Source: Bradyrhizobium sp. B097 (GTDB taxonomy: Bacteria > Pseudomonadota > Alphaproteobacteria > Rhizobiales > Xanthobacteraceae). Taken from it: 64,000 nucleotides of DNA. Shown here piece after piece: positions 13,257-18,291 of the stretch. The stretch spans positions 2,910,501-2,974,500 of the forward strand of contig NZ_CP152412.1 in assembly GCF_038957035.1 (NCBI RefSeq), in the 5' to 3' direction. The number at the start of each line of letters is the position of its first letter. Position 1 is the stretch's first letter. The translations under genes and the position numbers were made by a program. The notes below the pieces were generated by a model. That model did not search any database. It was given only the letters and a program-made list of their open reading frames with translations, and had not been told where the DNA came from.

Positions 13257-13529
13257 ATGCGCTTGAAATTCACCATCATTGCCGCCATCGGCGTCGGCAT
13301 CGCCGGGCCCGCCGCCGCGCAAATGTACGATCCGAATTATCCGGTCTGCATGGAAGTCTATGGCGGCAGGCTGACGCCCGAGTACATCGATTGCAGCTTC
13401 ACGTCGCTTCCGCAATGCCAGGCAACGGCCTCGGGACGATCGGCGACATGCTCGGTCAATCCCTTCTATAAAGGTCCCAAGAAGCCGACCAGCGAGCGGG
13501 GTCAACGACAGCGTCAGCCTGTCAACTAG
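13257..13529 (+). CDS. DUF3551 family small secreted protein (tandem copy 1)
   Basis: A 90-residue protein: signal peptide to about residue 21 (GPAAAQ), then the DUF3551 core MYDPNYPVCMEVYGG ... YIDCSFTSLPQCQATASGR ... CSVNPFY with four conserved cysteines. The family is abundant in Bradyrhizobium and its function is unknown. GAGGAG precedes the ATG by 6 bases. The gene 100 bases downstream encodes a close paralogue, so the pair arose by tandem duplication. Confidence 0.88.
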   Translation: MRLKFTIIAAIGVGIAGPAAAQMYDPNYPVCMEVYGGRLTPEYIDCSFTSLPQCQATASGRSATCSVNPFYKGPKKPTSERGQRQRQPVN

Positions 13530-13632
13530 CGCGTCTTCGAGCCGCGATGGCCTGCATGGCCGTCGCGTCGCTGGGACAGTTTAATAACTCCGGCAGTTGT
13601 GGGGAAACCTTCGCAACGACAAGGAGACACCG

Positions 13633-13902
13633 ATGCGCCTGAAACTGTTCGCGATCGCCGCAGCTGCGGTCGCCCTGGCCGGACCTGCCGCCGGGCAGGC
13701 CTACGATCCGAATTATCCGGTTTGCATGCACGTCTTTCAGGGCAAGTACGGCGGAAGCTACATCGATTGCAGCTTCACCTCGATCCCGCAGTGCCAGGCG
13801 TCGGCATCGGGCCGGGGTGCGATGTGCTCGGAGAATCCCTTCTTTGCGCCGCCGCCACCTCCGAAGCGCCGGGCGCACCGCGGACGGCATCGTGCCCACT
13901 GA
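13633..13902 (+). CDS. DUF3551 family small secreted protein (tandem copy 2)
   Basis: An 89-residue paralogue of the preceding protein. It shares the signal peptide start MRLK, the AYDPNYPVCMHVFQG block and YIDCSFTSIPQCQASASGR, but its C terminus is Pro/Arg/His-rich (PPPPPKRRAHRGRHRAH) and could bind metal or polyanions; this is inference. AAGGAGA precedes the ATG. A perfect nine-pair hairpin follows the stop. Confidence 0.88.
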   Translation: MRLKLFAIAAAAVALAGPAAGQAYDPNYPVCMHVFQGKYGGSYIDCSFTSIPQCQASASGRGAMCSENPFFAPPPPPKRRAHRGRHRAH

Positions 13903-13936: not shown

Positions 13937-14196
13937 GGCGGGTCGGGGGAGCCGACCCTGCCGCTATCTCCGATGGTAGGCGCCGTATCAGGCAGACATT
14001 AACGAATCTTCACGATAATGCGGGTTCCCTGACGGCAGCGGTCGGCGAGATCGACACGCGTCCCGAATTCGTTCACAACTATGGCGATAGTTACGCATTC
14101 TATTGCTGGATTCGTCGCGACGGGACGCGCGCAACCTCGCCAGGGCAGGCCTGGCCGACAGCAATCGTATCGCGTCAAGACTTGCGAAGGAATTCC

Positions 14197-17100
14197 ATGA
14201 CGGCAAGCTGGGTCAATTCCCTGGTCGACAGTGGCATCAAGTCCGACATGCTCAACTTTGCTGCGGACGGCGTCTTCACCGACGCTGAAGCCATCCAGTT
14301 GCTGGCGGATGTCGCCAATCGCGGGAGTGTCACCGCGAATGAGCTGAACTCGCTGCAGCTGATCGCGGCAAATCTGAACAGCGGCCTCTCCACATCGGAC
14401 TATGTCTCCCATCTTGTCGTCCAGCTCGTTGATGGGAATCCGGCCAACGCCACCTGGACAGGGGGCGGCACTGCTCACGTCACGCTCGGCAATCTGCAGG
14501 TCGGCGCGACGTCGACGCAGATGTCTGAACTGATCGGAAAGTGGTTCCAGGGGACCGATCTTCCGGATCCGACTTTGCCGCCCGATGCAGGCGGGAGCGG
14601 CTGGACATTGCAGGGCTACAGCGCGGTTGTCGGGCCGTTGTATTCTTCGGCGGGCGCGGCCACCGTCAACGACATCTGTCAGGGAGCAGACGGCGATTGC
14701 GAGTTGATGTCGGGATTGATCGACGTCGTCGTCTTTCATCCCCAGGTCATGAGTTCCATGATCGTGGACAATGGAAACGGCACCTATGGCGTGCGTTTCT
14801 ATGTCAATGGTCAGGAGACATGGGAAACCGTCAATGACGAGTTTCCGGTCGTCAGTGGCACCGAACTTGACTATGGCCACAACTACAATGAACAGCCCAC
14901 AGCAATGTGGGTTGCCCTGGTGGAAAAGGCCTACGCGCAGCTCAGCTCGACGGGTCAGATCGGGCACCCGGCCGTCAACAGCTACGACAATATCTCCGCT
15001 GATCCCCCGACGAATGTCTTCGAGAACCTGACCGACGCGACGAGCGTCAATTATTACCTGAGCAGCGCGTCCAATTGGTACAGCAACAAGTCCGTCTATA
15101 TCGCAGCACTCTCCAGTCACGACGACGTCATCCTCGAGATTCCTTCAACGTCTCCGTACACGTATGACAGTGCCGGGAACATCCAGCTGGTCCCGGATCA
15201 CGCGTTCGGGGTCGTCGGCTATGACAGCGCGACGGGCAATTTCATCGTTCGTAATCCATGGGGAAACAGCTATCCCGGCCAGAACTGGGATGTGCAATTT
15301 GAGGTTTCGCTGACACAGATCGCCAGTGAGGGCGGTGACTTCGTCATCGACAATTCCGGCGCCGTCGACGTCGCGCCCACGGTGGTCGCGTCGAACATCA
15401 CCGGCCGCGTGCAAACCTCAATTGCAGCGTCGTCCATGTTCTATACGACGGGCGGTACTCTGCCCATCATCGAATATGCGCTTTGGGACTCCACCGGTAA
15501 CGGCCACTTCACCGTGGGCGGGGTGGCGCAGGCGAACGGGGTCGAGATCGACGTCGCTGCCTCACAGTGGTCCAGCATTGCCTATCAGTTCGGTCCCGCG
15601 AGCGACCAGTTGTGGGTGGAGGCGTTCAACGGCGTATTCTGGAGCGCCTGGACCGAATTTACGGCAACCCCGGAAGGGCCCGTGGTGACGGCCGCAAACG
15701 TGACGGCAACGCACGGCCAGAGCTTTGCCGTGTCGTCGCTGTTCACCTATTATGACCCGTTCGGCCTCGCAGCCACCGAATACGATGTCTGGGACAGCGG
15801 CACCGGTGGCGGCCACTTCGTTCTGAACGGGGTGGCGCTTGCCGCCAATCAGGGCAACTACATCACGGCCGCGCAGCTGTCGTCATTGACCTATCAATCC
15901 GGCTCCGGCGCGGACACGCTCTGGATCCGGGCCAACGACAGCACGGTGTGGGGCCAATGGTCGGCTGCTTTCACCGTCACCGCGCCGGTCGACAGCGGTC
16001 CCGTCGAGGCGGTGTCGAACATTGTCGCGGCGCATGGCCAGAGTTATGCGGCCTCGTCCTTGTTCACCTACAGCGATCCGTTCAATAGTCCGGCAACGCT
16101 ATATGACGTCTGGGACAAGGGAACAGGCGGCGGCCACTTCGTTCTCAACGGGGTGGCGCTTGCCGCCAACCAGGACAACTACATCACGCCCGCCCAGCTG
16201 GCCTCGTTGAGCTATCAATCGGGTTCCGGCATCGACACGCTCTGGATCCGCGCCAATGACGGCACGGTGTGGGGAGCGTGGTCGAGCCCCTTCACCGTCA
16301 ATGCGCCAGTTGACAGCGGGCCCGTTGAGACGGTGTCGAACATTGTCGCGGCTCATGGCCAGAGCTATGCGGCCTCGTCCTTGTTCACCTACAGCGATCC
16401 GTTCAACAGTCCTGCAACGCAATATGACGTCTGGGATACCGGTACCGTCGGCGGGAGCTTCGTTCTGAACGGCGTGGCGCTGCCCGCCAATCAGGATAAT
16501 TACATCACGGCCGCCCAGCTGGCGTCGCTGACCTATCAATCCGGCTCCGGCATCGACACGCTCTGGATACGCGCCAATGACGGCACGGTGTGGGGAGCGT
16601 GGTCTAACGCCTTCACGGTCAATGCTCCGGTCGACAGTGGGCCCGTTGAGGCGGTGTCGAACATCGTCGCGACCCACGGCCAGAGCTATGCGGCTTCGTC
16701 GCTGTTCACCTACAGCGATCCGTTCAACAGCGCTGCGACCCAATATGACGTCTGGGACACGGGCACAGGCGGCGGACACTTCGTTCTGAATGGGTCGGCG
16801 CTGTCGGCCAATCAGGGCAACTACGTCACGGCCGCGCAGCTGTCGTCATTGACCTATCAATCCGGCTCGGGGACCGACACGCTCTGGATCCGCGCCAATG
16901 ACGGCACGGTGTGGGGAGCGTGGTCCAACGCCTTCACCGTCAATGCTCCGGTCGACAGCGGGCCCGTTGAGACGGTGTCGAACATCGTTGCGCCGCACGG
17001 TCAGAGCTATGCGGCCTCGTCGCTGTTCACCTACAGCGATCCATTCAACAGCGCTGCGACCCAATATGATGTCTGGGACACGGGCACGGGCGGCGGACAC

Positions 17101-18291
17101 TTCCTTCTGAACGGGTCGGCGTTGTCGGCCAATCAGCACAATTACATCACGGCCGCGCAGCTGTCGTCATTGACCTATCAATCCGGCTCGGGGGCCGACA
17201 CGCTCTGGATCCGCGCCAATGACGGCACGGTGTGGGGGGCGTGGTCGAGCGCCTTCACCGTCAATGCTCCGGTTGACAGCGGGCCCGTTGAAGCGGTGTC
17301 GAGCATCGTTGCGGCTCACGGTCAGAGCTATGCAGCCTCGTCGCTGTTCACCTACAGCGATCCTTTCAACAGCGCTGCGACCCAATATGACGTCTGGGAC
17401 ACGGGCACAGGTGGCGGGCACTTTGCTTTGAGCGGGGTGGCGCTTGCGCCCAACCAGGACAATTACGTCACGGCAGCCCAGCTGGCGTCGCTGAGCTATC
17501 AATCCGGCTCGGGCGCGGACACGCTGTGGGTCCGCGCGAACGACGGCACCGTCTGGGGATCATGGTCAAGTGCTTTCACCGTGACTGCGCCGGTGGACAC
17601 GGGTCCAGTGGTGACCCCGACCAATTCGAGCACGCTGTCCGTTCAAGGCCAGACGTTCTCGGTGTCCTCGCTCTTCACCTATTCGGATCCGTTCGGCAGT
17701 TCCGCGACATCATATGATGTCTGGAATAGTGGAGGCGGCAACGGCTACTTCACGCTGAACGGTGTTGCGCTCGGAGCAAATCAGGGCAATGTCGTCGCGG
17801 CCTCGCAGCTCTCCCAGCTCGCGTATCACGTGGGATCGGACACGGACACGCTGTGGATCAAGGCCAATGACGGGACCGTCTGGGGCGCCTGGTCCAGCGC
17901 CTTCACGATCAGCGATCCCTCGATCATTCCAGCCGGACAGACCCTCGAGCTTGCGTCGGCGAGCGCGGCGCAAATCTCCTTTGCATCAAGCTCCGGGACA
18001 TTGAAGCTCGACGACCCGACAGGCTTCTCCGGCACCGTCGCCGGCATGACCGGAGCCGACGCGATCGATTTCGCCAATATCAGTTTTGCGGCTGGGCAAA
18101 CCGTGGGCTTTGCCGGCAACACCGCGGGCGGATCGCTCTCCGTCTCGGACGGCGTCCACGCCGCCAGCATCGCCTTGCTCGGAAACTACATGGCATCCAC
18201 CTTCGTCGCCGCCAGCGATGGACATGGCGGCACGAGCATCACGGTGCATCCTGATCAGGTCGCCACGCTTGCCCCGCCACAACATGCCTGA
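14197..18291 (+). CDS. Calpain-like cysteine protease with tandem repeats and a type I secretion-type tail
   Basis: The 1364-residue protein has three parts. The N-terminal domain (to about residue 390) has the calpain (C2) catalytic residues: an oxyanion Gln and Cys in QGADGDCELM (Q162, C168), His in VPDHAFGVVGY (H335), and Asn in VRNPWG (N353). Next come one degenerate and seven good repeats of 107 residues (about 390-1240), each containing HGQSYAASSLFTYSDPF and a DTLWIRANDGTVWGAW block. The last 120 residues (LELASASAAQISF, then DAIDFANISF, then SIALLGNYMASTF) resemble tails of rhizobial type I-secreted proteins. There is no N-terminal signal peptide. GAAGGAATTCC precedes the ATG at 14197. 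No secretion ABC/HlyD/TolC genes are adjacent, so export must use distant genes. Substrate unknown. Confidence 0.85.
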   Translation: MTASWVNSLVDSGIKSDMLNFAADGVFTDAEAIQLLADVANRGSVTANELNSLQLIAANLNSGLSTSDYVSHLVVQLVDGNPANATWTGGGTAHVTLGNLQVGATSTQMSELIGKWFQGTDLPDPTLPPDAGGSGWTLQGYSAVVGPLYSSAGAATVNDICQGADGDCELMSGLIDVVVFHPQVMSSMIVDNGNGTYGVRFYVNGQETWETVNDEFPVVSGTELDYGHNYNEQPTAMWVALVEKAYAQLSSTGQIGHPAVNSYDNISADPPTNVFENLTDATSVNYYLSSASNWYSNKSVYIAALSSHDDVILEIPSTSPYTYDSAGNIQLVPDHAFGVVGYDSATGNFIVRNPWGNSYPGQNWDVQFEVSLTQIASEGGDFVIDNSGAVDVAPTVVASNITGRVQTSIAASSMFYTTGGTLPIIEYALWDSTGNGHFTVGGVAQANGVEIDVAASQWSSIAYQFGPASDQLWVEAFNGVFWSAWTEFTATPEGPVVTAANVTATHGQSFAVSSLFTYYDPFGLAATEYDVWDSGTGGGHFVLNGVALAANQGNYITAAQLSSLTYQSGSGADTLWIRANDSTVWGQWSAAFTVTAPVDSGPVEAVSNIVAAHGQSYAASSLFTYSDPFNSPATLYDVWDKGTGGGHFVLNGVALAANQDNYITPAQLASLSYQSGSGIDTLWIRANDGTVWGAWSSPFTVNAPVDSGPVETVSNIVAAHGQSYAASSLFTYSDPFNSPATQYDVWDTGTVGGSFVLNGVALPANQDNYITAAQLASLTYQSGSGIDTLWIRANDGTVWGAWSNAFTVNAPVDSGPVEAVSNIVATHGQSYAASSLFTYSDPFNSAATQYDVWDTGTGGGHFVLNGSALSANQGNYVTAAQLSSLTYQSGSGTDTLWIRANDGTVWGAWSNAFTVNAPVDSGPVETVSNIVAPHGQSYAASSLFTYSDPFNSAATQYDVWDTGTGGGHFLLNGSALSANQHNYITAAQLSSLTYQSGSGADTLWIRANDGTVWGAWSSAFTVNAPVDSGPVEAVSSIVAAHGQSYAASSLFTYSDPFNSAATQYDVWDTGTGGGHFALSGVALAPNQDNYVTAAQLASLSYQSGSGADTLWVRANDGTVWGSWSSAFTVTAPVDTGPVVTPTNSSTLSVQGQTFSVSSLFTYSDPFGSSATSYDVWNSGGGNGYFTLNGVALGANQGNVVAASQLSQLAYHVGSDTDTLWIKANDGTVWGAWSSAFTISDPSIIPAGQTLELASASAAQISFASSSGTLKLDDPTGFSGTVAGMTGADAIDFANISFAAGQTVGFAGNTAGGSLSVSDGVHAASIALLGNYMASTFVAASDGHGGTSITVHPDQVATLAPPQHA
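15676..17915 (+). repeat. In-frame tandem repeat array, 321-bp period, seven copies
   Basis: The block GACGGCACGGTGTGGGG recurs at 16258, 16579, 16900 and 17221, exactly 321 bases apart, with diverged forms one period before and one and two periods after. The middle five units are nearly identical in DNA; the first and last are more diverged. A more degenerate unit precedes the array at about 15370-15675. The pattern is typical of array growth by unequal recombination from the centre. Confidence 0.95.

Follow-up and report, generated by a model that had tools for sequence, protein, structure and literature searches.

Calpains have been studied mainly as calcium-controlled enzymes operating within eukaryotic cells, and to our knowledge little is known about their bacterial relatives. 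According to the sections cited here of a review (Rawlings 2015, PMC4631099), the bacterial members of calpain family C2 are characterized by a peptidase core with catalytic Gln, Cys, His and Asn residues, varied architecture and sporadic distribution, and some of them, such as the Gloeobacter homologue with hemolysin-type repeats, have been proposed to be secreted. Genes encoding substrates of type I secretion systems (T1SSs) are often located close to the transporter genes, as stated in the cited part of PMC2275737. In this work, we describe a protein which shares the above features of the bacterial C2 members and is encoded in a 64,000-nucleotide stretch of the Bradyrhizobium sp. B097 genome (contig NZ_CP152412.1, positions 2,910,501 to 2,974,500), called here the window, to which the coordinates below refer. 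With a probability of roughly 0.7, the sequence evidence suggests that this protein is a calpain-type cysteine protease of extracellular location, which a T1SS of the HlyB/HlyD type exports in a single step. Some bacterial calpains may thus be exported enzymes.

The gene is a single long open reading frame (ORF) on the + strand, running from TTG at 14182 or ATG at 14197 through 18291. The latter start, which is also that of the initial annotation, is favoured because a Shine-Dalgarno-like AAGGA motif, read directly from the + strand (14187..14191), lies 5 nt ahead of it. The complete coding sequence (14197..18291, +) specifies a calpain-family (C2) protein of 1364 amino acids (aa).

Calpain Core and Catalytic Residues

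The protease core covers residues 67-390 (14395..15366, +). The window protein matches Peptidase_C2 (PF00648) with 59.6 bits against a curated cut-off of 23.8, and structure modelling predicts that it adopts the calpain core fold. The four catalytic residues named in the initial annotation were all found at exactly the positions given there, and were also compared in relatives: Q162 (14680..14682, +) is the equivalent of the oxyanion-hole glutamine, C168 (14698..14700, +) of the nucleophile, H335 (15199..15201, +) of the catalytic histidine and N353 (15253..15255, +) of the catalytic asparagine. The median ratio of nonsynonymous to synonymous substitution rates (dN/dS) among orthologs, a set without L066 (start motif not located), is 0.087 in the core, 0.097 in residues 1-66 and 0.198 in the C-terminal tail; of the three regions measured, the core shows the strongest constraint and is under purifying selection.

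Half of calcium site 1 is replaced, with A152, A154, D159 and A236 aligning with Ile89, Gly91, Asp96 and Glu175 of calpain 2 in a mapping that combined a profile alignment, site residues from the literature and a worked-out numbering offset. This core site is retained in some bacterial calpain homologues only and is not required of bacterial members. In two of the 73 aligned relatives, P0082 and P0088, Gly occupies the place of the catalytic Cys and the Gln, His and Asn are retained; judging from these replacements, both are probably inactive, non-peptidase members.

Type I Secretion Genes Beside Calpain Genes

Matches to both an ABC transporter and an HlyD-type protein were found in the flanks of 24 of 80 public loci of calpain relatives, for which 10-kb flanks were sought (cut in 44 of the 80). 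Outside the window type, that is, the orthologs of the window protein, the pair occurs at 24 of 67 relatives, and at 13 of 28 where the flanks are full. Eleven loci show the order calpain-ABC-HlyD on the same strand, the ABC match lying 28-418 bp from the calpain frame (346 bp in Bradyrhizobium BTAi1, a strain that we take to be photosynthetic), and four further T1SS-linked loci are divergent (186-645 bp). Each of the seven scanned Bradyrhizobium loci of a shorter calpain type (L068-L074) carries the pair, and T1SS-linked relatives are also present in Aquitalea, Sphaerotilus, Magnetospirillum and other genera. The protease is present in relatives of about 600 aa, which by pattern have none of the window modules and still adjoin T1SS genes.

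At the BTAi1 locus (L113:9569-15281), as well as at L128 and L151, a calpain of about 600 aa, an HlyB-like ABC gene and an HlyD gene stand in a row. Four Aquitalea loci (L140-L142 and L144) have a PrtD-type ABC gene and an HlyD-type gene downstream of their calpain frames (945-1148 aa), on the opposite strand; at L140, an ORF resembling the TolC family by eye lies between.

The genome of Bradyrhizobium sp. B097 itself (9.25 Mb, one contig) encodes seven HlyD-type, one PrtD-type ABC and three TolC-type genes over cut-off, together with further HlyB-like ABC genes. One HlyB/HlyD pair, at 1.22 Mb (L021:655-17322), is located between two module-repeat proteins. The first is a divergent 998-aa protein rich in window modules (in its best stretch, 47% over 216 columns); its Tox-PLDMTX match at 818-858, inside the array of modules, is likely to be spurious. 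The second, one ORF further down, has 2410 aa and contains both modules and tail (51% over 344 columns).

Repeat Modules and C-Terminal Tail

The 321-bp tandem array reported in the initial annotation is real (15710-17603; period 321, 5.9 copies, Tandem Repeats Finder score 2510). Its description as seven near-identical 107-aa modules is corrected here: six are exactly 107 aa (321 bp) long and are not near-identical (residues 494-1135; 15676..17601, +), as their pairwise identity is 74.8-93.5%, with a mean of 84.5% over 15 pairs. The seventh and last module has 109 aa and 59-64% identity to the six (residues 1136-1244; 17602..17928, +), and an eighth, divergent Ig/FN3-like module of 101 aa, 37-42% identical to the others, precedes the array (residues 393-493; 15373..15675, +). 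The sixth 107-aa module, the sole one of the six modelled, is predicted to be Ig/FN3-like. In DNA, the six are 76-93% identical, and most copies are old, as pairwise synonymous divergence (dS) is 0.19-1.04. The fourth and fifth both match one ortholog module, which by sequence indicates a recent duplication; the module comparison among orthologs included four modules of L063. The length of this stalk, that is, the module copy number, differs between close species, and larger repeat proteins of this genome consist to a great extent of the same modules. Weak Pfam matches to NupH_GANP, YpzG and AbiEi_4 in the repeats were all below cut-off and were discarded, as were the 0-3 matches to a loose repeats-in-toxin (RTX) pattern in window-type proteins, which are read as the module's GSGxDTL stretch.

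The C-terminal tail (residues 1245-1364; 17929..18288, +), ending in LAPPQHA, is common to many repeat proteins and to other proteins that seem to be exported. Apart from module matches, the last 141 residues find three other strong places in the same genome (59-65% identity) and one weaker (42%). Residues 1240-1364 give 208 protein-database matches at E <=0.001, calpain orthologs among them, and the best 120 of these 208 carry many different Pfam domains, presumably including sortilin-like, AIDA, Calx-beta and galactose oxidase-like ones. The last 121 residues are matched in 30 of 60 sampled Bradyrhizobium genomes at 1e-12. For a test of the surroundings, 40 tail loci were taken from 60 rows, excluding own-genome rows, calpain orthologs and some others, and several were cut by contig ends. 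An HlyD-type match was present at 11 of the 40 and both ABC and HlyD-type matches at nine, compared with an ABC or HlyD-type match in none of 20 random 20-kb regions, so that the tail is commoner near HlyD-type genes than in these controls, all drawn from Bradyrhizobium and set against loci related by descent.

Proposed Export and Alternative Explanations

The window protein contains 17 Lys and Arg against 110 Asp and Glu residues, and two Cys; hydropathy alone revealed no strongly hydrophobic N-terminal stretch that could be a Sec signal or membrane helix (best 12-mer within residues 1-56, 1.1; best 19-mer overall, 1.36). Such an acidic, low-cysteine chain would be recognised by a T1SS via its C-terminal region, and the C-terminus would leave the cell first, with the Ig-like modules and the calpain core folding outside. 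The modules may serve as a spacer or matrix-binding stalk, the length of which would drift as units are duplicated or lost, and the core would cleave matrix proteins or proteins close to the cell. As substrate, a protein from the matrix, the surface or the surroundings of the bacterium seems most likely; we favour this by analogy because rhizobial T1SS cargo, in the cited part of PMC9298526, includes matrix-processing enzymes and cadherin-like proteins. We infer the export step from the shared tail, the modules and the linkage in relatives, not from a neighbouring transporter; in the window lineage, a T1SS coded elsewhere would serve.

Several observations weigh against this proposal. An ABC/HlyD pair adjoins the calpain gene at none of the 13 window-type loci among the 80 public ones (eight of these 13 with full 10-kb flanks), nor in the window or at the 13 loci L055-L067, and the pair is missing at 56 of the 80 public loci (44 of 80 having cut flanks). 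T1SS-linked calpains end unlike the window protein, so the window tail is not their C-terminus. Of the type I secretion-like tail in the initial annotation, the part that holds is a region common to other proteins; a search of the window protein for RTX repeats (PF00353) gave no match. The controls from a single genus and the common descent of the loci, which make the p-values guides only, count in the same direction, as does the Gly in place of C168 in two of 73 aligned relatives, by which not every member of the group would be active.

A possible, if rather doubtful, alternative is that the protein is secreted as an adhesin or matrix component: its modules would bind polysaccharide or surfaces, and the calpain part would be minor or regulatory, trimming its own protein or neighbours. 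This would fit the large share of the same modules in bigger repeat proteins of the genome and, according to the cited section of PMC9298526, the existence of rhizobial Rap proteins, T1SS substrates with cadherin-like domains that bind exopolysaccharide. However, the core is more constrained than the two other regions measured (median dN/dS 0.087 vs 0.097 and 0.198), and the protease is the constant part, because the relatives of about 600 aa beside T1SS genes keep it without modules.

The interpretation in the initial annotation, a secreted calpain-like protease with a repeat stalk as an effector or surface enzyme, is partly supported; no support for host delivery was found (symbiosis genes and nodulation status lay outside the analysis). 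That the protein acts in legume symbiosis as an effector, apoplastic or host-directed, is improbable: the host genus is Bradyrhizobium and several window-type ortholog strains are presumably legume isolates, but T1SSs as such release proteins to the medium, the window type occurs in just 18 of 265 sampled Bradyrhizobium genomes, and T1SS-linked relatives are spread over Aquitalea, Sphaerotilus, Magnetospirillum and other genera. In favour of such a role, T1SS-exported NodO can widen rhizobial host range (cited part of PMC2275737). Least probable of all is a cytoplasmic or inactive calpain-like protein with tail and modules acquired by chance fusions. The lack of adjoining secretion genes, flanking genes that look metabolic, the half-replaced calcium site 1 and the loss of Cys in two of 73 aligned relatives are consistent with it, whereas the four retained catalytic residues, purifying selection, the acidic, Cys-poor composition and the T1SS linkage of relatives argue against it.

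Distribution, Locus and Evolution

The window gene is the sole Peptidase_C2 match in its genome, and such matches over the family cut-off are rare, occurring in four of 398 sampled genomes of the phylum, this one included. Across Bradyrhizobium, calpain relatives were identified in 27 of the 265 sampled genomes, 18 with the window type and nine with the shorter, more distant type (frames of 584-746 aa). The N-terminal helical segment (residues 1-66; 14197..14394, +), delimited by the structure model and by domain bounds from a hidden Markov model (HMM) search in which ambiguous X residues were written as A, is retained in most scanned relatives; a structure search identified no fold in it, and as that search was dominated by the calpain core, this is no evidence of a new fold.

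The 13 fetched window-type loci (L055-L067) occupy one common chromosomal place, from which the calpain is missing in G036 and G098, neither of which is among the 27 genomes; in G098, an IclR-like gene directly follows the flank. The downstream-side gene is kept at 13 of 13 ortholog loci and the upstream neighbours vary, some including an IclR-type regulator and aromatic dioxygenase genes (named by eye) that do not occur in the window. A functional link to neighbour genes was rejected, since the upstream neighbours differ among orthologs. Upstream of the calpain gene, at 13257-13902, the window encodes two small similar proteins of about 90 aa, each starting with MRLK, which cross-match a counterpart pair in G036 at about 71-72% in DNA. 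In G259 (B. viridifuturi; L067/L099), the window-type gene is split over two frames, a frame change near residue 155 separating the N-terminal part from the rest, and the C-terminal end is altered; this ortholog is broken, or the sequence contains an error.

A tree was built from 83 rows, leaving out three pieces shorter than 231 residues (two of L137, one of L099) and also L068-L070, which nearly duplicate public loci. In it, all 14 window-type rows group in a single clade (support 100/100), and T1SS-linked rows appear in most main branches outside it. The nearest outgroup, Siculibacillus L102, is T1SS-linked (moderate support, 82/89). The single change of the T1SS label counted on the tree is trivial because unlabelled rows were not counted. 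As a tentative idea, to which we give somewhat less than even odds, a broad Pseudomonadota branch of calpains would be dedicated T1SS cargo, with extracellular proteolysis rather than cytoplasmic signalling as a main job of bacterial calpains, and the window protein would have left its operon and acquired a stalk and a tail that can be exchanged. In that case, the calpain domains that eukaryotes may have got from bacteria could descend from exported enzymes.

Comparison with Known Systems

Existing database entries name orthologs of the window protein as C2 family cysteine proteases, and both calpain-family identity and a secretion proposal are known from earlier work; we consider the new part to be calpain genes beside T1SS genes. 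Among the matches listed in open-access literature, no description of such genes or of a T1SS-exported calpain was found, and neither 'Bradyrhizobium' nor 'type I secretion' occurs in the main text of PMC4631099. Unlike the reviewed bacterial C2 members, the window protein possesses an Ig-like stalk and a shared C-terminal tail, and its relatives have adjoining T1SS genes. This recurrent link gives one calpain branch a testable location.

T1SS proteases of the RTX kind would have T1SS export and a C-terminal signal in common with the proposed enzyme; they are zinc metalloproteases with RTX repeats (cited part of PMC3034196), in contrast to a cysteine protease with no RTX match. The Rap and Ply proteins of Rhizobium leguminosarum, which use the PrsDE T1SS, are rhizobial substrates, in some of which an enzyme or a lectin is linked to cadherin-like domains of about 110 aa (cited section of PMC9298526). 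The Ply proteins are glycanases, unlike the window calpain, and the likeness to Rap is drawn from the published description of those proteins. The large Bradyrhizobium AIDA/cadherin repeat proteins P0036 and P0041 have the same kind of modules as the window protein and also its tail (61-64% identity in the tail), with no calpain domain among their precomputed Pfam domains. The window protein is a case of one tail and one stalk module occurring on different enzymes and repeat proteins.
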